NCBI GenBank assembly: GCA_023853785.1
Contig: JAJIRX010000829.1
Location: forward strand, 496,001 to 560,000
Length of the DNA: 64,000 nucleotides
Reading direction: 5' to 3'
Origin: Psilocybe azurescens
Taxonomy: Eukaryota > Basidiomycota > Agaricomycetes > Agaricales > Agrocybaceae
Part shown: positions 2,337-61,200 of the stretch, in pieces
How the letters are laid out: the number at the start of each line of letters is the position of its first letter
How positions within the stretch are numbered: the stretch's first letter is position 1
The notes under the pieces: model-generated
The model's database searches: none
Seen by the model: only the letters and a program-made list of their open reading frames with translations
What the model was told of the DNA's origin: nothing
Position numbers and translations under genes: made by a program

Positions 2337-5300
2337 ATGTCGACAGACTTGGGGCTCGACCCCTCCGACCCTCTCAACCTCCTTCTCCATAACAGTTCCC
2401 AGAATGCAGACTCTTCGACCAGCAGCGAGTCCTCACAGATGGACAGTAGCCATTCAGAGGATTGGTCAAAATTCAGCGCACTCTGGGCTGAAGTCAGCGA
2501 ACAGTCGAACAACCCAATGAAGCCCTACGCCGATATCATGGACTTTGCGGACCTCAACTCGATGCCTATGAACATGGATTTCAACCCATCCATGTCCATT
2601 GAACCAAGCGCACTGCACTACGACTCCATGAAATTCGCGAACTCTGGCATGAACTTCTCGTACGATGATCAGTATGGGCTGTCCAGTGAATTGCTCGCTT
2701 CGCAGTTTCCTTTCACTTTCCAGTTCAATGGCGAGGACATGTCGAGCTCTTCGTCTTCGGCTTCTCCGCAATCGTCGACCAAGGAACGGAGGTTGAGTAT
2801 AACCTCTTCCTCTTCTTCGTCTGGCGCATCGCTTTCACCGGTACCAGAATCGATACCCAGTCCGCCGACTTATAACGATATGGTTCAAGAACCCACACAA
2901 TATCCGGAAGCTGCTGCAACTTCATTTAGTGACCCTGTTGCGGAGCTTGCCCAACGAGTCCGTCAGTCTGCTGGTGTCATGCTTGCGGTTCCCATGAATG
3001 CTCAATTCCAAGGCCAGGGAGTACAACTATCGGGTATGCTACCTATAGCCTATTTTATATCATTTACTAATCGCCGAACTCAGCAGCAAATGCCTCGCAA
3101 TCAAAACTCCCTATCCCTAGACTTCCCCGACACAACTCCACGACCGCTAAGCCCACTGCATCGACCTCATCTTCGGCCGCATCGACTCCTCCCCCATCCA
3201 CACCTCCACCCGCCAATGCGTTCAAACTGAGTCTCAACACGGCAACAATGGCCCTCGCCCTTCCAGAGGCAGCATCCACACCCGTTGTAACCACCCCTGC
3301 CGGCTCATTGCCGCGCCCAAAGACGAGCCACACCACGATCGAGCGGCGCTACCGCACGAACCTGAACGCGCGCATCCAGAGCCTGCGCATGGCCGTCCCC
3401 GCGCTGCGCGTGCTCGAGGACCGCGAGGGCGGCAACGGCAAGAAGATCAAGAAGAACGTCAAGGGGAGCGTGCCGATCAAAGGCACGACGAGCGGTATCA
3501 TCGACAGCGAGGACGGGTCGGTGGTGGATGTCATCGACGAGAGGGGCTTTGTGGACGGCGTCAAGGTTGCGAGGAAGTGCAGCAAGGCGAATGTCCTGGG
3601 CAAGGCGGTGGAGTATATTAGGGTGCTGAAGAAGCGCGAGCAGAGGTTGAAGGCGGAGCAGGCGGGGTTGAAGATGTTGGTTGCGGGCCTTGTTGGTGGT
3701 CCTGCGCTTGTTCGGGAGTGGGAGAGGGAATGGAGGGCCAAGTTTGGTGGGGAGGAGAAGGACGAGGTCGAAGGAGAAGACGATGCCGACGACGACGATG
3801 ACAGTGAAGATGAGGACGGCGAGGACGGCGATGAGGAAGGCGGCAGGAAGAGGAAGCGCCCGAAAGCCTCCTCCGCGACTGCTGTCAAGAAACCGGTCGA
3901 GAAGAAGAAGCCCGCCCCGCCGCTGGTGCATGTCGGCACTGAACAGGACGGGAACCCGGCGCCTGAGAAGCGGAAGAGGGGTAGGCCGAGAAAGGTGTTG
4001 CCGCCGCCCGTCACCCTCGCCCCAACTCTCTCGTCACAAGAGTCGTCGTCGTCCATGCAGGACGAGGTCATGCACCCTCCTTTGCCCGTGGTGCCACAGC
4101 AGAGTTGGGTGCCGCAGCAACCCCAGCCACAGCAGTTCCTCCTCGCCGTGTTTGCGCTGTTCTCGTTCTTCAACTCTCCTCTGACATCGTCGCCGTCGGC
4201 TTCATCGTCTGCTGGGCATCACCACACAGGGACGGTGCTGTCCTCGCATCCTCCGCTGGCCTATGCACCCGAGATCCTCTCGCTGTTCCCCGAGCCCAAG
4301 GCGTCTGTAGTAGCTCCGTGGGCGTGGAAGGAGTATGTCCAGATTGTACACTTGATTGTGTCGCTTTTGGTGCTGGCGAGCTTTGTGGGCAGCTGGCTTG
4401 GTGCAGGCAAGGCCGTTGCGCGTGGCAGGCGCATGTCACTCCGCGTGGCCAAAGGGGCGAAAGCCGGCCCTGTTGGCTGGTTTAATATTGGCGAAGCGTC
4501 TGTCCTGGAAGGTACTGCGCTCTTCATATATATATATTATGATAATATTTTATTGACGATTTTTTGCGATAGGACGTGCGGCTTCGTTGACTTTCTACGA
4601 GAGGCTGCAGATCTACCGCTCGATTTCTGCGTGGACGAATGCTACTACGTCGCAGCTGGTGACCATCGCTATGACTGTCCAGCATACACCCGGCGTGCTG
4701 GGCGGCGTTGCGCGCATGAAGGCCCGCGCGATCTGGGCTGTGGCGAAAGCACAAGCCCAGAATAGGCTGCCTATTCGCAAATACGAGTCTTTGGTCTTCA
4801 GGGAACTTGATCTGGACGGTGCCTCTGCGCTCCTTTCCACTGCGACGGCCGGCGATAAATCGGATGGCGAGCGAGCCTTTGAGCCTGTTGAGGTTGTCGC
4901 GTGTTTGGTGATCAAGGATCGGATTAAGAAACACCTTGGGAGGTTGTTTGTGAATGTCGTCTCGGCGGAGGATGTGGTTCTAGAGGATGAGAGCAAGGAA
5001 AAGGAGAAGGAAAAGGAGGAGAGGGAGTGGCGCAGGACGATTGATGCGGCGCGCGAGCTTGGTGGGCGGGTGAGCGTGCTCGGCACGATGTTCGAGCGCG
5101 TGTGGAAGGCGTCGCCGAGTGCGCTGGAGGACGCGGAGCTCGAGCTCGCTGAGGGCGAGGGTGGTGAGGATGAGATCAGCGAGATCAGGGCGCTCCTTGT
5201 CGCGGTCATTCTGTATAGGCGGTTGTTTGATTATGGATGTGCGTCGCCTAGCTCGTCGACGTCGACGCTGTTGATGAGCCCGCCGCCGAGTCCGACGTCG

Positions 5301-9364: not shown

Positions 9365-12300
9365 ATGTCTATCAACCCAACCTATTGTGCCCCATTTTTG
9401 ACGACGGGCTGTTCTTTTGGAGGGAACTGCTCATTGCGACATGACATCTTCAAGTGTTCTTGCGGAAAAGTCATGCTTTTGGTCAACCGAAAAGCGCACA
9501 CCAAAGGAAAGGCCCATCGCCAGGCCCTCCAAAACTCGCGAGCACCAGCCCTTCCTCCTCCGATCTCAACCCAACACAATAATCAGCCGGGCCCATCGAG
9601 GAGTGAGACTGCGCACTATGTTAACAATGTGAGGCAAATTCAAATAACGGATGATCTTCACTACTAATTCCGATCTAATACCCAGAGGGAAGAGCCGTCA
9701 ACCCCTGTCCAAGAGCAGTTGGTGTGCGAGCATTGCCGCAGAAAAGTGGACAATGCTGAGTACGATGCACACGTCGAAGCTCACATCCGGCGGCAACGGC
9801 TGGATGAGGCGCAGGCGGAATTGGAGGAAGCGAAGAACGACAAACAGGGAGTCGTTGTGACCGGGAGGAATGGTATCGATTTTGGGATCTTGGCGGGCGA
9901 CTGCACGGTGGAGACGACGGTTGTGATCACCAGCACCGTCTCTGCGGTTTCTCTCAATCGATGCAGGATCGAGTCGTCTACTCGTAAAGATGGGCATGGG
10001 GCCAAGTGAGTCTAACACCTCTGACACCCTAAAAAAGTTGTGCCAATCACAGCACTTCTTTAGGTTTTCCGCTCATGTGAGAGGAGCAAGAGGCCGGGTG
10101 ATTCAAAAGGAGCTACTAGGCAGGTCTCCATCGTATTCCACCCATCATATGCCGGTAAATACGAAGATACTCTCACTCTCGTTTTCTTCGACCTGGACAA
10201 GCGCTCTACATTCGTCATTACAAGAAGTGTCGAGGCTACCGTTGGAGACCCAGCGGACCATGAGCAACTCAAAGCCAAAGCGCCGTACAAACGTCGAAGG
10301 GTCTTCAGAATCAATCCTATTGGCACGGTAGTCCCGAGCATGAGACCACCCACCTGGTCGAAGACACCTTGGGTAGACAGACTTCTGCAGTTCTATCCTC
10401 CTGAGCGTCTCATCAATATGGCGTTCGGCCCGCCGCCAGTATTGAAGCAGGCGTTATCGAACGTCAAGCGGTACATGCCCTCCGTCTTCAACGAGAATAC
10501 ATATGCGTGGTTTTTCCAGACTTTGCTCTATCTCGAAGAGCATCAAGTCAAGTGGGTACCTAAAAATATAAAGTGACATCTTTGTTGATGATTCTTTCAG
10601 ACTGGATTTGGATGCATACTCGTTGAGTGATGTCGAATTGCAAGCGAACTATCCGCGTTACAAGTGCATTGCTTTTCGCCTTTTTCTTCTTGTTAACTCA
10701 TAGGATTTCGAATAGATTATTAGTCGAAGGACTGGCCGAGAATCGTCCCTCGGTCCTCGTCGGAGATTTTATTCATGTCAGTCATCATGAACCATCCGAA
10801 GAAGTCAACCCGAACCGCACCTGGTTCGAAGGCCGAGTCCACAAAGTACACGAAAATCACGTCACTCTTCTCTTCGGAGACAACTTCAGCACATACAAGG
10901 GCACCAAATTCGATGTTCGCTTCGTCCTTAATCGATTGCCCTTCCGCCGAATGCACCAGGCTCTTGTGAATAAATTCAACCCTAAAAGGCTCTTATTCCC
11001 AGAACCAGCGCATATTCGAGGCGTTACACGTGTGTCTTCCACTCAAATCGAAGATATCTCTCCGGCGTATCGGCCCATCAAAGAAGACGAAGAACAGATG
11101 GAGACGGTGGCGGCTATCTTGAACCAAGCTCCAGGCAGCGTTCCGTTTGTGGTGTTTGGCCCGTATGTACAGAATAAACTTCTCTAATCAAGCACTACTA
11201 ACAAGTGTCTCTAGACCTGGAACAGGAAAGACCATCACCATTGTCGAAGCAATGAACCAAATTCTTGACCGCGACCCTAACGCTCGCATATTGGCCTGTG
11301 CACCCAACAACTCGGCAGCCGATCTCATCGCCATAAAGCTTATGCACCGCGGAACATCAGAAGTATATCGCCTGAACGCACTCAGTCGTAAACACGACGA
11401 CATGGATAGGTCACTCCGGCCCTTCTCGTCTATAAACGACAACATGGTGTTCTCCATGCCGCAGAAGGACTCGCTGTCCAAATTCAGAGTCGTTGTGTCG
11501 ACATGCTTGTCGGCTGGAGTCCCTGCATCCTTAGGGCTGAAGAGAGGACATTTCAGCCATATTTTCATCGATGAAGCTGGGCAGGGCAAAGAGCCTGAAC
11601 TGATGATACCCATCAAGAGCATTTCGGATGATAAAACGAACGTGGTTCTTGCTGGTGACAACCAGCAGATGGGACCGATTATCAACTCGAGTCTTGCGTC
11701 GAACTTGGGATTGAAGCTGAGTTATCTTGCGCGCATCATGCAACGCGAGATATACGACCTGGCGAGATACAAAGGCATCACGTACGCACATCTTCTAAAT
11801 CATATCGTAGACATTATACTTACCCATTTATGTGTCCTTCCAGCATTGTCAAGCTCATCAAGAACTTCCGCTCGCACCCTGATATCCTTCAGTTCTCCAA
11901 CGAGCAATTCTACAACTCGGAACTGCAGACGTGCGGCAATCATGCCTTGACACACTCATTGGTCAACTATGAAGAATTGCCCAAGAAAAAGTTCCCACTG
12001 CTATTCCACTCGATCATCGGCAAAGACGAGCGTGAGTCGAGCTCGCCGTCTTTCTTCAATATCAACGAGGCGACACAGGTCAAGAAATATTGCATTTCTT
12101 TGATTACTAATAGGAAGAATATGATAAGTGCGTTCGAACTTGTTATTCGAAAGTTAATTTTTTCATTGGTTTTGATGTACAGAGGCCGAACATATTGGTG
12201 TGATCACTCCATATCACGCGCAAAGGTGCAAGATCCTGGATCTTCTTCATAAAGATGCCCGACTCCGCGATATCAAAGTAGGAAGTGTGGAAGAGTTCCA

Positions 12301-35309: not shown

Positions 35310-38300
35310 ATGGCAGGGAATTGCCCCAACGTCCTCGCTCAGGGCACTTGCTCAGACACCAGCTGCACGTACAGCCATACCATCACCACTTGCGACGCCT
35401 GCAACCTCGTCTTCGTCGACGACGACGCGTACCAGAGCCATCTTTCAAGCACAAAGCATAAAAGCAGAGTTTCTGGATCCTCGGTCGTGTCTCATTGCAG
35501 CGTTTGTATTGCAAATATCACTGGCGGAGAAAAAGGGTGGGACGTACATATCAAAGGCAAACGACACGCCAACAACGTCATTATAAAAGGAGTCTCCGCT
35601 GAAACGCTACCTCAAGCAGCCACCACCACAACGAAGAACACATTTTGCGATTTGTGTCAAAGCATGGTGTATAATCCTCACTGGAATGCGCATATTAAGA
35701 GCGACCGGCACCAATCTCGCGAGTCTTTCACTCGATATAGGAGTGCCTTAGAAGATGCCGAGGCAGACAAAAACGGCGTGACTATCGAAGGAAACTTCGA
35801 CTTCGACTTTGTAGATCCAGCGACTGCCCAAGGCGGAGTGCATACCTATGTCAGTATCATAACTTCTGCGGTTCATTCAAGATGTGTATTGTCCGAGCTG
35901 CGGCTCGCGTCCAGTCAAGGGACGAGGACCATCATTCCTGTGTGAGTGGCTTTTCTCACCTTTTGGGCGCCTTTGTTGAGTTTACTCCAGATTTTCCGCT
36001 GTATTACAAGGCACTGCACGAAGCATCACGTCCCGAAGCCCGTTGACTGTAACTATCACTCTTAGGCAAGGCCATATTGGCCGCTACGAGGACCGGCTGG
36101 AGTTCATCTTTGAAGACACGCAACTCAGGAAAGTCTTCGTCATCATTCGCACCTTGAAGGCAATTGTTGGGTACAAAGCCGATCATGAAGCGCTGCGACC
36201 AAGGGCGCCGTATGTGCCTCGCACACGTTCCGCGTACAAACCCATCACCAATGTCGTCGAAGGTATCAAGCCTCCAGCTCTGAGTGCCGTTAAATATATT
36301 GTTCGTCTTCCTCGGACGGATATACCACATCAATTGCAGGCCATGTTGGCGGCCTCCGAGTCGACACATAGGCTCATGAGCAACATCAAAAGGATTTTCA
36401 TGCCAAATTCTTTAAACAGCGACACGTATGGGAAACACTTCAAGAATCTGCTATGGATTGAGGAATATAAAATGGAGTATGTACCACCATTGATTTCGTT
36501 CCGGCAGTGCGATTCTTATTCAACATCAGGCAGGATTTGGAGAGATATGATATTCTGGAAGCGACATTGGCCAAATACAACAGTTACTACTAGTGAGTCA
36601 ACCACGAACAGTCCAAAGTGTACTTGTATTAATTCCATGTTGACTATTAGCTTGGAAGTTCCAGGGTTAGCAGAGAAACGTCCCAGTGTTTTAGTTGGTG
36701 AGTACATATAGTCGAATGTGACGTCTGTTATTTACGTTAACATCCTGTCCCACAAGGCGACCTTATACTTGTTCAGGAGAGGGGTATTAGAGACGGACGC
36801 TGGTTCGAAGGACATGTACACGTCGTTCGTCAATCCGAAGTTGGCCTTCGATTCCATGGTTCCTTTACGCAGCATCCCGAAGGAAGACGATTCCACGTCC
36901 GCTTCAAACTAAACCGCATTCCTTCCCGTCGCCAACACCAGGCTATGGATAGTGCATTCACCGAAGATCGCGTTCTTTTCCCTCGTGTTTCCCACATTGC
37001 TCCCGGACCTGCTCGCCGACCTGCGAGCGTTGGTATGAAGCTGATTAATCCATTATTAACGTTGAACGCGCCACAACTTCAAGCGGTCGCATCAATTGTG
37101 ACATTACGTCCTGGTTCTCCTCCGTTTATTGTATTCGGGCCGTGAGTTTTTTCCATTACTTACAACTTGAAGTGTATCACCTTTACCTAAATCACCTCTT
37201 CAGACCTGGGACGGGAAAGACGATCACTATAGTAGAGGCTATTCTACAGGTTCTGGAGGCCGATCCTCGGGCTAGAATCCTTGCATGTGCTCCCAGCAAC
37301 TCTGCGGCCGACCTTATTGCCTCTCGCCTTCGAGTGGATCGAGTGACTCGAGAAGATCGCAAGCTCAACGTGAACCAACTATTCCGTTTTTACGCTGCGT
37401 CGCGCTTCAAAAATCAAGTACCTGACGATTTGCTGCCATTCACAGCAACTTTACCTGATGGGCATTTTACAGTTCCGCCTATGCACAAGTTGCGAAACTA
37501 CAGGGTAGTGGTGTCGACATGCGTCTCTGCATCCTTTTCGGCCGGAATTGGCATGGCTCGTGGACATTTTACGCATATATTTATTGACGAAGCCGGCCAG
37601 GCGACCGAGCCTGAGGCCTTTGTTTCTATCAAGACCATGGCAGACAGTAACACAAATATCATCCTTTCAGGCGACCCGAAACAACTCGGCCCAATCGTTC
37701 GCTCCGCTATTACCAGAGAACTCGGCCTAGAGAAGAGCTATCTCGAACGACTGATGGACAGTGAGCCTTATGACCTGAAAAACTCGTACGGTAAAAGGTA
37801 TGTGGCAGGAGTGCCGCTGTCTTCCAAATACCTATCATGTCGACTTATTAGACGTTTTCTCCAAGTGTTGTCAAGCTTGTCAAAAATTTCAGGTCGCATG
37901 ACGCTATATTAAAGTTCCCAAATCAAACCTTTTATGAAAACGAACTGCAGCAGTGTGCCCAGCCATCCATTATCAACGCGTATTTGGACTCTTCGTACCT
38001 GCCTTCAAAGAAATTCCCGGTTGTTTTCCACGCCGTTGCCGGGAAAGATGACCGGGAGGCATCGTCTCCGTCTTTTTCAACATTGATGAAATTACACAAA
38101 TCAAAAGTTATGTGCAGAGGCTGAAGTCTGACCGGGCTTTCCGCACAGGTATTGTGTATTCCTTTCAATGTCGTGTCTTTCAAATCTGATTTGGTTTCTC
38201 TCTAACCATTCAGCTGATAAAGACATTGGAATCATCGCTCCTTACCACGCACAATGCGTCAAATTAAGGGCGGCTTTACGAAATGTCGCAGACGATGTCA

Positions 38301-38860
38301 AGATAGGCTCGGTTGAAGAGTTCCAAGGACAGGTACGTCAGCCGTTAATCTCATCTCATCCATTACGAGAGGCTTATCCATTCATTGTATGTACACAGGA
38401 ACGCAAGATCATCTTGATTTCCACTGTTAGAAGCAGCAAGGAGTTCGTGGAGTACGACTTGAAACATACCCTCGGCTTTGTGGCCAATCCCCGACGCTTC
38501 AATGGTATGTCTACGCTATCTCTCTTTCGTCACATTCTCACCGAAAAGCCTCATCTAGTTGCGGTGACGAGGGCCCAGGCGTTGCTTATCATTGTCGGCG
38601 ACCCACAGGTCCTGTCTCTCGACCCACTCTGGAGGTCGTTCCTCAATTACATATACTTGCAAGGCGGATGGACTGGCCCGGATATTACATGGGACCCTAA
38701 TATTCCTGTGGATGAGGCTGGTGGGTACGATAAGGATGTTCGTCAGACTGCGACGCTTGATATGAATGAGTTTGCGAGGCGTATGGAAGGCCTCGCGTTA
38801 GCTGATGTCGACGAGGATTTGGACGCTAATGTGGATAGACCATGGCGCGATGTCGAGTAG
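35310..38860 (+). CDS. CCCH/C2H2 zinc-finger SF1 RNA helicase, UPF1/MOV10-like (copy B)
   Basis: Exons 35310-35941, 35991-36476, 36530-36592, 36651-36697, 36757-37141, 37204-37797, 37866-38148, 38214-38332, 38399-38504, 38559-38860; about 1005 aa. The N-terminus has a C-x8-C-x4-C-x3-H finger (residues 5-23) and three U1/matrin-like C2H2 fingers (CDAC...H...H, CSVC...H...H, CDLC...H...H). Helicase motifs: [40 protein letters not shown]. The start is the first ATG before the CCCH finger. One base is missing at about 38071, where copy C and helicase A keep the SPSFFNI frame, so this is probably an error. It differs from copy A by an extra intron (36698-36756) and lacks A's first intron. Its 3' part, from intron 3 on, belongs to the tandem duplication. 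Confidence 0.87.
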
Positions 38861-53671: not shown

Positions 53672-56200
53672 TCAGCACCGGATTCCGCCTCCGGTCACTG
53701 GGCTGGCTATAGTGTTAAATAAGTCCGACATTGGAACTTCTAGGTCGACAGATGATGACTGAATAGGAGCCACAGTTTTTGACTTTCTTTTCGTTTTTGG
53801 AGGCTCAGCATGGGACGCAATGTGGATTAATGATAGGTCGATATTGCTTGAGCCATCCACCATCTGTTGTTGATCATGGTCCAGCCCGGACAACGGGACG
53901 GCAACAGTGTTTGAGAAAGTGCTGCCATTGCCATTTAAATTGGACATAAAAGCTTGTGGTTGTGCATTTGGAATGTGGTAGTGGTTAAAATGTTCGTTAT
54001 CAGACACTGCCTGACTGTTGTGGAACATGTTTTGGCTGGCACTAAAGCTCCTGATATATGCCATGTTGTCAAGTCTGTCGTCCGGATCGTCATTCAAGGG
54101 TCCCATTGTTATTTCGGCATTGGATGGCCCCGCAGCGACTGAATGTGCAGTTGCCAAGCCGGCATTGTAGCTATATTCCGGATAAGGTCCCACATTCGCT
54201 CCCCAATCCCAAGCATTCGGTTGTTCATGTCTGCTATGGACGTTGTTGCCCGGATAAAACTGTGGCAAATGAAAGAGTGTTGTTTGTGAAGTCAAAAGCT
54301 CCGGATAGCCATCTTCAACATCTCCCTGAATGTTTGGGACCGGGCGCAATGGCTTTCTCTTTACCTTTGCCAACTGTGAGGGATATGTTTGCCGATAGAT
54401 CCGGATCGGAATCCGGGCGGGACTCATTTGGAGGAGCATATCTCCAATCCTGAACACATTTTGGCCATCTGGATTTTGTACTTTGCTGTTGTCTTTTGAA
54501 GCTTTGGTGTTTCCCCGTTTTTTGGAATGTTTCGGTTTTTTTGTGCTTGGAGGAGGAGTCGCATTGGGATTGGGATTGGGATTGGGATTGGGACCGGGAT
54601 CAGACTCATCATGCGCACTGTCGTCCGGATAACGTGTCCGGATAGGTTCGTAACCTTTTGTTTGGCATTGACCATTGGAAAGCGAAATACATGGCTTATG
54701 GGATGTGTTTTCTGTCACCCCAAAATGTGGTCTATCAGTGATATTAAGTTGGGTAAAGATAAGTCGCGAGGGTCTTTCATTTTGAATCCACTGGGCAGAT
54801 ATTCAGCGGTATGAACAGTGCCTGATTTTTCTGTAGTTGTCTGTATGGGACTTGTTGGCTTTGACCGTGTGTTGCCAGCTCTATTCAAATTTTCGGTTAC
54901 ACAGTGCCGGCAAAGCAATGAGGTGTACGCACTGTAATGTTTTGCAAGGTATTTTGAATCATTTCATCGAGTTCTTTCTTGACAGGTAGGTTGCCTGACT
55001 TTGTGTCCAATCCTTGAGGCAGGATCGGGAATCCGTCGTCGGCGAATTGCAGGCCAAGATCACATACAGCAGTGCCAGTGCTGGTGGACATCCATGGTGC
55101 AGGTGCAGGGTTCAGGATCTTCCTCATTTTGGTTATATATTCCATGACATAAAGCTTCATTTGGTGAACCTGGGGCCTATATTGACTTTCAAATAGTGGG
55201 GCATCGACATCCATAATTTCTGCCATCTGATCAAGACTATAAACTGCGAGTAAGAACAAAGAATGCTGGTGCCGGGCTCGGGAGCCGGCCGGGACTTGAG
55301 AGAAGTTTGCTTACACTTGAACAACAAGCTTGCCCAATGAGTCCGTGTACGCAACAAATGAAAGGGAAAGAACCCCATTTCGTTCCAATGACCTCTGCGC
55401 CTTTCAACAACCATGAGATGGCATTTTTTCGGCCAGCCTATTTTACACATTGATTCCGCTGGCACGCAAAGAAGCATATAACTCACTGTTGTCTTCTGTC
55501 CTCATCTTGATTATCTGCGGAAACAATCTCTGCACCTTTTATATCCAGGTGTTCCAGCTGCAGTGCTGACATTTGTTGCAAGATATTTCCGAGGGCCTTC
55601 ATGCGAAAGTCAAACCAATTAGGCGTTTGGGTGGATGCGGAATCAAGTCCCATTAGGCTTGCAATCTCTGCAAAAACATCGTCCTTGCGTGTCCGCCATA
55701 AAACTTCAGTCCTTTTCATTGCTGCCCCAGCAATCACTGTTTCTGCGACTTTAGTTCCTCGCCATGTGTTTTGCATCCAAGCAATTAGCTTCTATATAAT
55801 GTTCAAAGTCCAAAAAGGCGCCCAAATGTATTTTTAGAACATTGAACTCTAACTTTCAAAATAAAATGAAAGCTTAACGTACCCTTGTTTGTGTTCGTGA
55901 GTCTCCAATATCCTGGCCTATACTTTCCTAGTACTGAAATATATTGGGCAGAATGTATGTCTTCGCCAAGCTTTTGCGTTCCTCCACTGATTTTGATGCA
56001 AGATACCTTGCTTTGTGGGCGTCAAGCACTTTCCTTTCTTCAGCGTTGTACACAACTTGACGCCCGATCTGGACGAACAAGAAACTCCGGGATGACAGGA
56101 TTGGGGATCGGACCAATATCGTCGTTCACGTCGTCCGGGTTTACCTCATTGGTGGATGTGCTTGTGAGGCAGGAGGATGTTCGATAGTTGCAGAGTCCAT
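53672..56200 (-). CDS. KDZ-adjacent hypothetical protein, divergent from the transposase
   Basis: Starts at about 56200 (MDSATIEHPP), 187 bases from the oppositely directed transposase start. Blocks in order: VYNAEERKVLDAHKARYL then ERKSLAKTYILPNIFQY; KLIAWMQNTWRGTKVAET; FAEIASLMGLDSASTQTPNW; a Pro/Asn-rich region with an (NP)n repeat and Lys-rich PSTKKPKHSKKRG; then a long Ser/Asn/Gln-rich tail ending at 53672. The first part (short basic helices around 'ERK...A..ILP.IF.YW') looks like a family I associate with KDZ-bearing loci in agarics, but I cannot name it. Introns are many and some joins are uncertain. Confidence 0.45.
54563..54593. repeat. GGGATT microsatellite inside coding sequence
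   Basis: Four to five copies of the hexamer, coding the Asn-Pro repeat of the minus-strand gene. It is not a telomere repeat (TTAGGG). Confidence 0.8.
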
Positions 56201-56386
56201 ATCTGCAACAAAAGTGTAATGGCAGAACAATAAAGAGCCAAGCAGAGGAAGCTGCAATCGGATGGAAATTTTCACAATGTGATTTCAAATAAAGCACCGG
56301 ATGTTGTCTACCGGATACCCTATGATGCGGTCATATGGTAAATTTTCATGTGCAATCTTAAAACATCTCTCTCTCCCCTTCTCTCA
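56201..56386. promoter_or_regulatory. shared divergent promoter of KDZ transposase and minus-strand gene
   Basis: The only space between two divergent start codons. No specific motif is assigned; inferred from layout. Confidence 0.4.
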
Positions 56387-57030
56387 ATGCCCTCTCAAAG
56401 ACAAAAAAACAAGAAAGAGGCACAGCGAAATGTTTTGCGTGAAGGGGACGTCGAGGCCGCCGCCGCCATTACATATGAAACAAGGAAAACTGTCACACAG
56501 AATGGGGCGAATAAAGACAAAAAATATGCAGTTGCACTGAACCATGAACCAACAGAGCCTACTGCCGGGCCTTCTGAGCCGAGAGACATGGATCCAGATA
56601 TTGAAGACAATCCATTTTATGACATGGACGTGGAAGTGGATGACTCTGTTGTAGAGCCAAAATCACGGAAGGTCAGACTGTTTTAAATACATCCATTCAA
56701 TTCACATTTTGACCAAATTGAAGACACAACGGGATTATATATTACAGTTCGTGGAAAGAGTAGATGATTTACTGGGGGCATTGCTTAGCCGGGAATCACT
56801 ACGACCCGAGCTCTCTGAGTGCATTCATTGTGCTTCAAACCTACGAGCAGTCTGGCGTTGTCAGGACTGCAGTATGCCTATAATGCTATGCAGATCCTGC
56901 ATGCGCGAGACACATCAAGACAATCCTATGCACAGAATTCAACGGTGGACCGGTTCCCATTTCCGCAAAGCCGAGCTTTGGGAAGTCGGAAGTTACCTTC
57001 TAATAACCCATCATGAGGGTAATCCTCTGT

Positions 57031-57038
57031 GCACAGCC
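57031..57038 (+). repeat. target-site duplication, left copy (gcacagcc)
   Basis: Eight bases identical to 58264-58271, directly flanking the inserted element; eight bases is the hAT hallmark. Confidence 0.85.
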
Positions 57039-58263
57039 GAGGTCTTTACACTCCCCACAGGTACCGATCGGAACCGGTCGGAATCCGACCGGTTCCGACC
57101 GAATTTTATTTGGCAGTGTCCCTGCCAAATTAGCAGTAAATGTCCAAATTTTTCCGACCGGATTCCGACTGGATTCCGATCGGAACCACCGGTACCGACC
57201 GGTTCCACTGTTAACAAGTCCGACTAAAATCCGATCGGAATCCGACCGGAATCCGACTGGAATCCAAGTGGAATTCATCAAATTTGAAACCCAATTAGAC
57301 CCAATTCCGAGTGGAATCCGAGTGGTACCAAGCGGAACTATATTATGTCAGCATACTATTTACAGCTCACCAAGTAATAATACGAAAAGTATACATAGAT
57401 CTCAACAGTTTGTGACAAATTTGGTATTGTTAGAATTGTAAAATTTAGGAGAATATGTTTATGTAATAGTTATATAAAATTAAAAATTTTCTAATAAAGA
57501 AATACCTATTTTTCATATAAATCTGTGCTTATATAATCTAAATGTCTTGAATAAAATTAATCTTTGTATTCCATTAATTTCTATTATTGTAAAACTATTA
57601 ATATATAGCTAACAGAGTGCTATTTTGTTGCAAAATGTAGTTTACAATATCTATATATATTTAAATTTACAGTATTTTGTATATTGAACATGCTGACATA
57701 ATATTATGATGATGGTGTAATTACAGATGCATTGCCCTCAATTTTCTGATCATTTTGATATATAATATGTGGGTATAGCTTCAGAGGAAGTGCCAGAATC
57801 TATTGTTGGGTGTTGTAAAGAATAGTATATAATTCATAAAATGTTGATAATACCACAAGCAATAATAGTGTAGTTGGTAATGTGTGTATAGAATTAATAT
57901 ATATGAAGCTGTTGATTCAATTCCTGTTGAGTGCATTTTATAATTTCGCATTTATTACAAATATCATGTGACCTGAATGATTACTTAAGAGCTTATGTAA
58001 GAAATATTATGTAATACTGACTAAGCAGACTATATCATGTGATTTCAATACATTACTATAAGTTTATGTAAGCAATTATTATGTAATGCTGACTAAGCAT
58101 TGTATTATACACTGATTAAGTACATTATGAGAAATTCCGACCGGATTCCGACCGGTTCCGAGTGGGTCCGAGTGGATTCCGATCGGATTCCGACCGGTTC
58201 CGATCGGTTCCGACTGGGTCCAAGCGGTTCCGACCGGTACCCGTGGGGCACTGTAAAGTACTG
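57039..58263. mobile_element. non-autonomous hAT-like DNA transposon, 1,225 bp
   Basis: Both ends form an imperfect inverted repeat: left GAGGTCTTTACAC then CCCCACAGGTACCG; right, on the minus strand, CAGTACTTTACAG then CCCCACGGGTACCG. It is flanked by the 8-bp direct repeat gcacagcc. The ends (CAG...-like) and the 8-bp duplication fit the hAT superfamily. Inside each end are many copies of a short motif (CGGAATCCGACC and CGGAACCGGTC variants, both orientations). The core (about 57350-58130) is A/T-rich with no open frame, so a transposase must act in trans. It sits inside the KDZ CxC2 exon; removing it plus one repeat copy leaves an open frame. Confidence 0.85.
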
Positions 58264-58271
58264 GCACAGCC
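58264..58271 (+). repeat. target-site duplication, right copy (gcacagcc)
   Basis: Identical to 57031-57038; the KDZ reading frame continues from here (CTALKFQTKY when joined to the left side). Confidence 0.85.
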
Positions 58272-61200
58272 CTCAAATTTCAGACCAAATATTTGGAGTC
58301 ATTGGAGTGGCCCAAAGACGAGAGGGAGCAGACAGAAGAACTCCAGCAACAGGGTGCAGGATTTCAGAATGCGCGTCCGGAAGGGCGAACCCGGTGGCGG
58401 TTCGGGTCCAACCCAGCGCGATGACAGTCGTGCTGGTACTCACCAGCAAGAATGGACAGATAGACCTCAGCCAGCCGACTATAATTTTAACAATCAAGAA
58501 TTTGATTGCTACCTGCAATCGTTGCAAGACAATTCCAACGTGGTACAAGATGAAACGGTGCCGGATGAGGAGCCCGACGACGCGACAGAAGTCACAAATG
58601 CCGATGCCGATGTCCATTTTATCCCGGACTATCTCGAAGCACTAAACATTGGTGATGCCGATCCCACAACAGCCTTTGCAGGGAGCATTCCCACTGCTGA
58701 TGGTTTGAATAATTCGTATGTCCGTGTCGTTCACACAAACGGACTTCACCACTTGGCAATGGTTTCTTGTTCATGCCGGGGGCCTGACGTTCTTCCACTT
58801 GATTTGATGGCGAGCAGGCTGATACCGACAAGCTTCTATCATGTCCGGACATTGTTTTCCGGCTCAAATGCTTGATTTTTTCGTCTTTCAAATCTTGAAC
58901 TCAAGGCATCAGCATATCAATTTTACACTCTATTGGCGCCCGGATAACGAACCCAATTGCTCCCTCAAGTGTGGTTGATCTGTACAACGAATTTCGCCGT
59001 ATGACCCGTCTGTGGAGATGGATGAAGAAACTCAAATGGTCAGGATTTGCAGGTCATAATGGTAGAAGTGCGATGGACGTCCGGAAAGGTGAACTTGCAA
59101 ACTACTGCCTGGCATGTCCACAGGTCGGGGTTAACCTGCCGGACAATTGGAAAGACGACCCAAACCGCTGGGTGTATAAACAAATTTTTGTGGCCGATGG
59201 AAATTTCAAGGCCGATCATGTTCGAACGGAGAAGCCGTTGCAGGATATATGGCTATCGGAAGGAGGAGGCATGATTCCGCTTCGTGAAGAGTATGATATG
59301 TTCCTGAAACATGCTATAGAACGATTAACGGTCAGTTTGCCGCTCCAATGCCGTCCCGACCCAATCCCGACCCGACTAAACTGTGTACACAGGGCACACC
59401 TTGTGAGAACACATTTAAGGCTATCAAGAACACTCTGATCGCCTCATCCGCCTCCGCGATATCACCGGAATTGTTGCATTTGCGTGTGCTCGACATGGAT
59501 GCTTTGCTCCTAATTCTATGGTCGATCTTTTCAAGGGTGAACAGCAAAAAAACATTGATTTTTCATTTTTAATGGCACTGGCTTCCACTCTAGTCCACCC
59601 GGACCAAGGAGCTATGGTGATATACGACATTATATGTCAATATTTTATTTACCTGCTGCTCCGGATTGGACATTTGCTGCTGTCCGGTCTCAAGATTGAT
59701 CGAGCAATTGGTATGTTTCACGTTCATGCCCATAAAGACAAATGTTTTTTTCCGGCTATGCGCCCCACGTTTATCCCGGGCACGGCCACTGTTTGTGGTG
59801 AAATATTGGAATCATTGTGGTCAAACTTAAATCCAATCTCCCGGGCGGCACGGACAGCAACTCTGGCGCACCGCTGCAGAGCTCCCTCGACAATCATGCC
59901 TGCAATTCGAACCATAAAAGACTCTGGGAATATGGAAATATCTTTCCAAACGTTTTGTAGAAGCTGACCTGCACAGAGACAGGTTTCACAACTGCTTCAT
60001 GAAAGTTAGTGCCAGCGGCCGGGGTGGACACAGTCGACATGTGGACGGGGAAACAAATTGAAGATGCAGAATCTCAGCAACTGCATAATCCCAAGGCGAT
60101 GGATGTATATGCTGCCAAACGTCTGGCCGATATCGGATCCGGGGTTGACAGTACCTCAGAAGCTGACCTGGACCCGACCCGGTGCCGGTCCACTATCGAA
60201 TCTTGGTTAGAATTTGCACTGCTAGTGGAAGAAAAACAGTAAGTCAATATTCATTTCCTATGTAATCAATCAAATGACCCGGCTTCAGGTTGGACATTCA
60301 AATTAGGACACGGCACCTGATTAACGAGGATCGCATCGACAACAGGGATAAAATGAACAAATTACGGGAAGAATTGGCTGCGGAGATGACACAGCTCGCT
60401 CACTTGCAAGGCCTTGCGGGAGCTCTTCAGATATCTGGTCAGAGTGTTATTATACCGGACCAACCACTGGATATTTGGGAAGACGGGGATGACATCCCGA
60501 CCCGACCCATTGCCGCCCGAACTCCACGATGACATTCACCTCCACTTACTATGTCTACCATCCAATGGTAATTGCAGCGAAAGCTACAATGATGCCGGAA
60601 CTTAAAGCACAAATCAAGCAGGCTACCAGTCATTTGAATCAAATCTGCGAACTCATTGCAGAGAAGTCCTTCTTGTATTCGAGTGTATACAGAGATGCCC
60701 TGAACAAGGGGGTCCGGACCCGGGCCCGTACAACAATTAAAGCAGCTAATCACAAAATATCTTTTCATTCCCAGGTATATACTCATTGCCGTTGCCCGGC
60801 TAATCCGGCTGAATGCCGACAATATCACCCTCGCGCAAACTCCGTGTGCTAAAGAAGGAAGATGTTAGGGGAAGCACCATGATTTTGAATCCCAATCTTT
60901 CAGGCTCCACAACACTTCGCCTGTCTTGGATTTGGCATTCAGTGAGCCAACGCCTTTTGCCCCGAGTGAGCGGCCAAAATGCCGGTCCCGGTACCGTGCC
61001 GACTCGGGATGACGATGAAGGAGACTTGGGTATGGAAGAAGAAACGGATCCCACAACTATTCTTGAATGTAAGCCATTTATTTCAAATTGTGTGACGTCA
61101 TGCTAAATAATATTAGTTGAACGTGTACATTGGCTTCGTGCAAGGGCACAGTTCCAAAGATGGGACAAAGAGAAGACACTTGTTTCATATGAGATGCAGT

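Follow-up and report, generated by a model that had tools for sequence, protein, structure and literature searches.

In the Ac/Ds elements of maize, an 8-bp target duplication and short terminal repeats are described together with many short copies lacking a transposase and with subterminal CpG-containing repeats (AAACGG) within the terminal 200 bp (PMC3260210). Among agarics, a description of Marasmius oreades includes MarorhAT-4, -11 and -12, short non-autonomous hAT elements of 597-631 bp that share ends, carry no transposase and have a longer known relative, of 3,396 bp, in which a hAT transposase domain is present, and for a hAT family of the same fungus it names low-methylated copies as likely sources of new insertions (PMC9674265). 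Zisupton elements, which are of the KDZ type, combine target duplications of 8 bp with inverted repeats at their termini (PMC12730594). Here, we describe a transposon family of Psilocybe azurescens, one copy of which lies inside a KDZ gene within the window, that is, the whole stretch of 64,000 nucleotides analysed (contig C713, 496001-560000), and we have followed this family through the searched genome of 70.4 Mb in 937 contigs.

The Ac/Ds features listed above recur in this family, with no transposase gene visible in its short copies, but its CpG-bearing unit is CCGANNGG, arranged in clusters mostly spaced 10-11 bp, and no autonomous partner was found among the places compared. The Ac end sequence also differs from the ends of this family. 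The MarorhAT elements, likened here by description only, have in common with it an agaric host, short length, shared ends and an apparent lack of a transposase, and differ in their smaller size (about 1.2 kb here) and in their known longer relative. The likeness to Zisupton, in duplication length and inverted repeats, is likewise one of description and not of end sequence, and no KDZ domain lies between facing ends of the family among the ends and places listed.

Our reading, held with high confidence, is that a 1.2-kb DNA transposon without a visible gene was mobilised in trans and inserted into a KDZ transposon of which many copies already existed. The transposase acting on it would probably recognise its short terminal repeats together with the CpG-bearing arrays directly inside them, as the Ac transposase does with AAACGG in Ac/Ds. 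The element entered one KDZ copy after the KDZ multiplication, duplicating 8 bp of target. Taken singly, this is an insertion of an ordinary kind. The locus is nevertheless a clean nested case of one DNA transposon in another in an agaric genome, in which the paralogs of the host serve as built-in empty sites.

The insertion and its boundaries

The following features delimit the insertion in the window, with the basis of each in brackets.

57031-57038, no strand: target site duplication, left copy, GCACAGCC, 8 bp (direct repeat; 8-bp duplications throughout the family)
57039-58263, + strand: non-autonomous DNA transposon of 1,225 bp, GAGGTCTTTACA...TGTAAAGTACTG (boundaries shared with other copies; empty sites)
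57039-57061, + strand: left terminal inverted repeat, GAGGTCTTTACACTCCCCACAGG (inverted ends; pattern matches in the genome)
58240-58263, - strand: right terminal inverted repeat, reading inward CAGTACTTTACAGTGCCCCACGGG (inverted ends; pattern matches in the genome)
58264-58271, no strand: target site duplication, right copy (direct repeat)

An earlier note on this DNA had reported an 8-bp direct repeat around a 1,225-bp element with imperfect inverted ends, and this description holds: GCACAGCC is present at both sides, and positions 57053-57082 and 58219-58248 are 87% complementary over 30 nt. An isolated 8-mer repeat is weak proof by itself, since the window has three matches of this kind against a mean of 1.9 in shuffles. 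With the agreement among other copies and the empty sites given below, the insertion is confirmed as real and well bounded.

Joined at a single copy of the repeat, the flanks read ...EGNPLCTALKFQTKYLESLEWPKDE..., and the uninterrupted reading that the note derived from this join is matched by 18 of 19 KDZ paralogs, which read continuously across the site. Its term "frame-preserving footprint" does not apply, as the element is still in place and the site is an occupied one without an excision scar; whenever an element inserts precisely into an exon and duplicates its target, the flanks will join cleanly in this way.

The family across the genome

The left 322 bp of the element have 40 long matches in the genome, the window's own included, at 91-100% identity (40 scored of 159 candidates); 38 are near full length and two begin at base 47. 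Patterns made from the ends gave 155 occurrences of the left-end pattern GTCTTTACACTCCCC at no more than one mismatch (8 for the reversed control) and 168 of the right-end pattern CAGTACTTTACAGTGCCCCA at no more than two mismatches (none for the reversed control); the family comprises roughly 150 related copies. Complete copies number 24, namely the window copy and 23 of the 39 others fetched; the remaining 16 were dropped, 14 for having no right end inside the fetched stretch and two for lacking the first 46 bp.

The 24 complete copies measure 1,165-1,229 bp and have the same two ends, and none shows boundaries other than those of the window copy. Copies beside different 8-bp repeats, for which the earlier note had proposed a search, are present: the flanking repeats are perfect in 14 copies and have one mismatch in seven, and all 21 differ in sequence, whereas left and right flanks taken from different copies match with no more than one mismatch in only 2 of 552 pairs. 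The exceptions are L056, with two mismatches, and L050 and L075, which with five and six mismatches have no recognisable 8-bp repeat. Three longer copies outside the 24 (C603, C669 and C808) have perfect 8-bp duplications. Facing ends no more than 10 kb apart, taken from the 100 of 155 left ends and 100 of 168 right ends listed, form 58 pairs, of which 42 are spaced 1.0-1.3 kb and 16 fall outside that range.

Empty sites also exist away from the KDZ gene. Among the 22 other copies tested, five have a paralogous locus, within the set fetched, at which the site is empty and the 8 bp occur only once, and the longer copy at C603 has such a site in L010. The family is thus dispersed, with fixed boundaries, duplications of fixed length that differ from site to site and empty sites, the features by which DNA transposons are recognised. 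Word searches of the literature, made without comparison to a repeat library, returned no published description of it; as far as seen the family is new, and it is of a known kind, a non-autonomous cut-and-paste DNA transposon.

KDZ genes as a favoured target were considered and found no support: in none of the other 39 copies did the flanks used, namely 800 bp on the left and also the right side if the right end had been fetched, match the KDZ proteins used. At greater distances, L067 has a DNA match to the KDZ locus L035 at 828-1130 bp beyond the right end, and KDZ domains are found 1.6 kb from the family copy at C551 and 1.3 kb from that at C779.

The host gene, its empty sites and the order of events

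The host gene is represented in the window by three parts.

56709-57038, + strand: left part of a KDZ-family exon; B-box-like zinc cluster at 56820-56924, under the Pfam cut-off (paralogs, Pfam)
58272-58872, + strand: right part of the KDZ-family coding sequence; CxC2 match (PF18803) at 58711-58857, under the Pfam cut-off (Pfam)
59431-59883, + strand: KDZ transposase domain (PF18758) of the host element (Pfam)

The predicted gene at 56709-59883 has the domains of a KDZ transposase with a CxC2 cluster: PF18758 scores 75.1 bits (cut-off 26.6), and CxC2 scores 21.3 bits in the window copy (cut-off 27) against 51 bits in the paralog L046. The insertion does lie in a KDZ exon, as the note had placed it, but between the B-box-like zinc cluster and the CxC2 match, not within the latter. 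The repeated KDZ unit spans at least 55187-59840 of the window, and the host KDZ element is accordingly larger than the gene.

A search with the left flank returned 22 KDZ places besides the window's, of which 19 were read, leaving out one at C551 and two pieces at C603. The 18 with an uninterrupted site include the five closest paralogs, which share 97.4-97.8% identity with the window copy where the two were compared and have GCGCAGCC at the site; in L048 the site reads GCACAGCC. The nineteenth, L041 (C257, reverse strand, also L088), breaks into unrelated DNA at nearly the same site, and in the 10-kb stretch fetched around it neither the right flank nor the 1.2-kb element was found. None of the 19 paralogs read contains the 1.2 kb. 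Of the 120 protein-database homologues listed for one paralog, 113 have alignments that cross the site, with no more than nine extra residues near it, and the other seven do not extend as far. As boundaries agree across copies and the sites are empty, the KDZ multiplication came first and the element arrived later in one of the resulting copies, the order of insertion that the note had read from the window.

The note's further view, that the KDZ gene was likely coding when hit, is unsupported. In a comparison with the five nearest copies, for which L048 served as the outgroup, the window branch carries 31 substitutions over 3,238 aligned bp and the branch of the five nearest copies 10 more. 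Of the window-branch substitutions, 27 are C>T or G>A, and the 17 inside the ORF spans are distributed over codon positions 3, 1 and 2 as 7, 5 and 5. In addition, five of the six ORF-span indels that separate the window copy from the five nearest, unpolarised by the outgroup, are not multiples of three. Judged by substitutions and indels, the pattern is that of a dead copy, and death before the insertion or because of it would both fit. The element in the window differs by 1.31% from the majority sequence of the 24 copies, the second lowest value in a range of 1.24-5.25%; the insertion looks recent by this measure, and the KDZ window branch and the element both look recent.

Two other accounts of the interrupted gene were weighed. 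The insert might act as an intron, in the manner of introners, and be spliced out to leave the KDZ gene unbroken; by inspection, a donor CACAG/GT (57060/57061) and an acceptor supplied by the duplicated site (CACAG, ending at 58269) are available, and such splicing would leave 24 extra nucleotides, in frame. This acceptor, however, hinges on one particular target site, the combined length of insert and duplication is divisible by three in 10 of the 24 copies, close to the one in three that chance would give, and the window KDZ copy has five other frame-breaking indels (unpolarised). An intron of 1.2 kb would also be unusual in agarics, and we regard this account as highly improbable. Equally hard to credit is that the KDZ paralogs once held the element and lost it by excision. 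hAT excision leaves short scars, which we counted for this account, but none of the 18 continuous paralogs retains a trace of a duplication, and the element persists in the window copy.

Subterminal arrays and CpG decay

The interior of the element divides into two CpG-bearing arrays and a core.

57060-57339, + strand: left subterminal array, made up of CpG-bearing units (CCGANNGG) that are clustered, mostly at spacings of 10-11 bp (unit counts)
57369-58123, approximate, no strand: AT-rich core, almost without CpG in the majority sequence of the 24 copies (GC 0.26, CpG observed/expected 0.08)
58136-58241, + strand: right subterminal array of CCGANNGG units, mostly 10-11 bp apart (unit counts)

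The majority sequence contains 21 units, 12 in its left 330 bp and nine in its right 140 bp, against a mean of 0.5 and a maximum of 4 in 1,000 shuffles, a control for a unit that was picked after viewing the ends; 13 of the 20 spacings are 10 or 11 bp. The observed/expected ratio of CpG is 1.29 and 1.42 in the two ends, 0.08 in the core and 0.92 in the remaining window. Left end, core and right end hold 25, 1 and 17 CpGs in the majority sequence and 25, 2 and 17 in the window copy, and the old copy L074 retains 12, 0 and 4. Rfam gave two matches only, both on the left repeat array and both under their gathering scores, which we take as chance.

Across the copies, C to T changes occupy 177 of 961 CpG cells against 104 of 3,877 cells of other C, an excess as expected if the copies were CpG-methylated. 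The decay is similar for CpGs that belong to the units and for those that do not (268 of 803 cells, 33%, and 43 of 141 cells, 31%), so the units are seemingly unprotected after insertion. The CpG-rich ends of the majority sequence suggest that it is copies with such ends that transpose, in a sample whose selection by likeness to the window's left end favours copies that are CpG-rich there.

A tentative proposal, on balance doubtful, is that the phased CpG-bearing arrays are putative transposase-binding sites and act as a switch gated by methylation, with a transposase possibly of the KDZ type. Copies with intact, unmethylated, CpG-rich ends would then transpose, and methylated copies would deaminate, lose CpGs and drop out; this would account for CpG-rich ends beside a nearly CpG-free core, although after insertion CpGs within and beyond the units decay to a like extent. 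As the copies form a series from nearly intact to strongly CpG-decayed, the family could be used for asking whether CpG methylation of the ends controls transposition in fungi.

Which transposase moves the family

The searches for a transposase of the hAT type gave 20 places with the dimerisation domain, and 31 and 17 matches for two hAT proteins; the KDZ domain has at least 170 matches in the genome. From these, 29 hAT places (the 20 with the dimerisation domain and nine protein matches) and 118 listed KDZ places were compared with the listed ends of the family, and none lies between a pair of facing ends among the ends listed. Four places have one end facing them at no more than 8 kb and no listed partner for that end, namely hAT at C520 and C257 and KDZ at C438 and C779. 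For other types, searched in the genome only, DUF659 has one place (below the cut-off) and MULE two, and P-type RNase H had none in a genome search run without a positive control.

The longer copies C603, C669 and C808 were rejected as autonomous partners, as their extra DNA is other sequence inserted in the AT-rich core. Their longest stop-to-stop frames have 158, 96 and 125 codons, respectively; among the longest frames of C669 and C808, four were compared with Pfam and gave no match, and the window ORF across the left end has no relatives at E 0.001 or better.

The consensus of hAT ends is 5'-YARNG, and P elements, like the family described here, make 8-bp target duplications. The ends of the element, GAGGT at the left and CAGTA at the right, fit that consensus at bases 2-3 (AG) on both sides, at base 1 only on the right and at base 5 on neither. 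A source on the P superfamily gives YARNG as its consensus as well (PMC2820524). Because Zisupton shares it by description (PMC12730594) as P elements do, an 8-bp duplication is not diagnostic for hAT. The label "hAT-like" in the earlier note is therefore unproven, the more so as the ends miss YARNG and no hAT place lies between listed facing ends.

By analogy with Ac/Ds, as far as its description goes (PMC3260210), a hAT transposase is still the likeliest mobiliser, and we consider it somewhat probable that the element is a hAT moved by a hAT transposase of the same genome, which is a specific form of our main reading. This would agree with the 8-bp duplications, the short inverted ends with AG at bases 2-3 and the subterminal repeats, all as in Ac/Ds, with the 20 dimerisation-domain places in the genome, and with the described fungal hAT of Marasmius oreades and its shorter non-autonomous relatives (PMC9674265). 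It sits less well with the lack of G at base 5 of either end and the G at base 1 of the left one, and with a hAT of the same genome (L009 and L011) that appears to end in TAGTGATCACC, fitting YARNG unlike this family. Moreover, in the 20 dimerisation-domain loci, each with up to 1.5 kb of flank, ends of the family's type are present but none 3' of the domain faces it.

The element could instead be a non-autonomous, Zisupton-type member of KDZ, a KDZ passenger in a KDZ gene, which we think unlikely. Its 8-bp duplication and inverted repeats agree with the description of Zisupton (PMC12730594), KDZ domains are far commoner in the genome than hAT dimerisation domains, and right ends at C779 and C438 face KDZ domains at 1.3 and 7.7 kb. 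Against this, none of the 118 compared KDZ places lies between facing ends among those listed, Kyakuja families of Laccaria are described with 7-bp duplications and no inverted repeats (PMC12730594), and putative nematode Zisupton elements are reported to have inverted repeats without a duplication (PMC9297572). Kyakuja itself, described by a 7-bp duplication, CA..TG ends and the absence of inverted repeats (PMC12730594), was rejected, as the element has 8 bp and inverted ends. That the mobilising transposase belongs to a kind other than hAT or KDZ is somewhat unlikely.

Nested and neighbouring elements

Several related or nested elements were seen along the way. Near position 860 in the AT-rich core, L090 (C669) and L091 (C808) contain the same other sequence of about 2.4-2.5 kb in opposite orientation, a stretch of which is also present in L085 (C169), and L089/L051 (C603:36907-40759) has near the same position a different 2.6-kb element with ends GGGTTGAACAATC and a repeat some 10 bp long. 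Near a hAT domain, L014:2304-2712 contains a relative of 409 bp whose ends, CAGTATTTTACAC and GAGGTCTTTACACTG, are of the family's type and which is partly similar to the core and left end of the family. In L012, from position 1728 on, there is a related right end (CAGTACTTTACCATGCCCCAC) whose subterminal repeats are different; it adjoins an ORF with a hAT dimerisation domain, and a related element may have hit this hAT gene. The hAT relative with apparent end TAGTGATCACC is present in two copies, L009 and L011, and in L011 it stands beside a partial copy of the 1.2-kb family.

Elsewhere in the window, two groups of helicase-like ORFs of the same type, at 11147-11947 and 37142-38857, share PF13086, with PF13087 in the second, and are perhaps related. 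A helix-loop-helix protein is encoded at 3248-4762, with agaric proteins as its named relatives, and the named relatives of a window protein come from agarics such as Candolleomyces, Blastosporella and Tricholoma.
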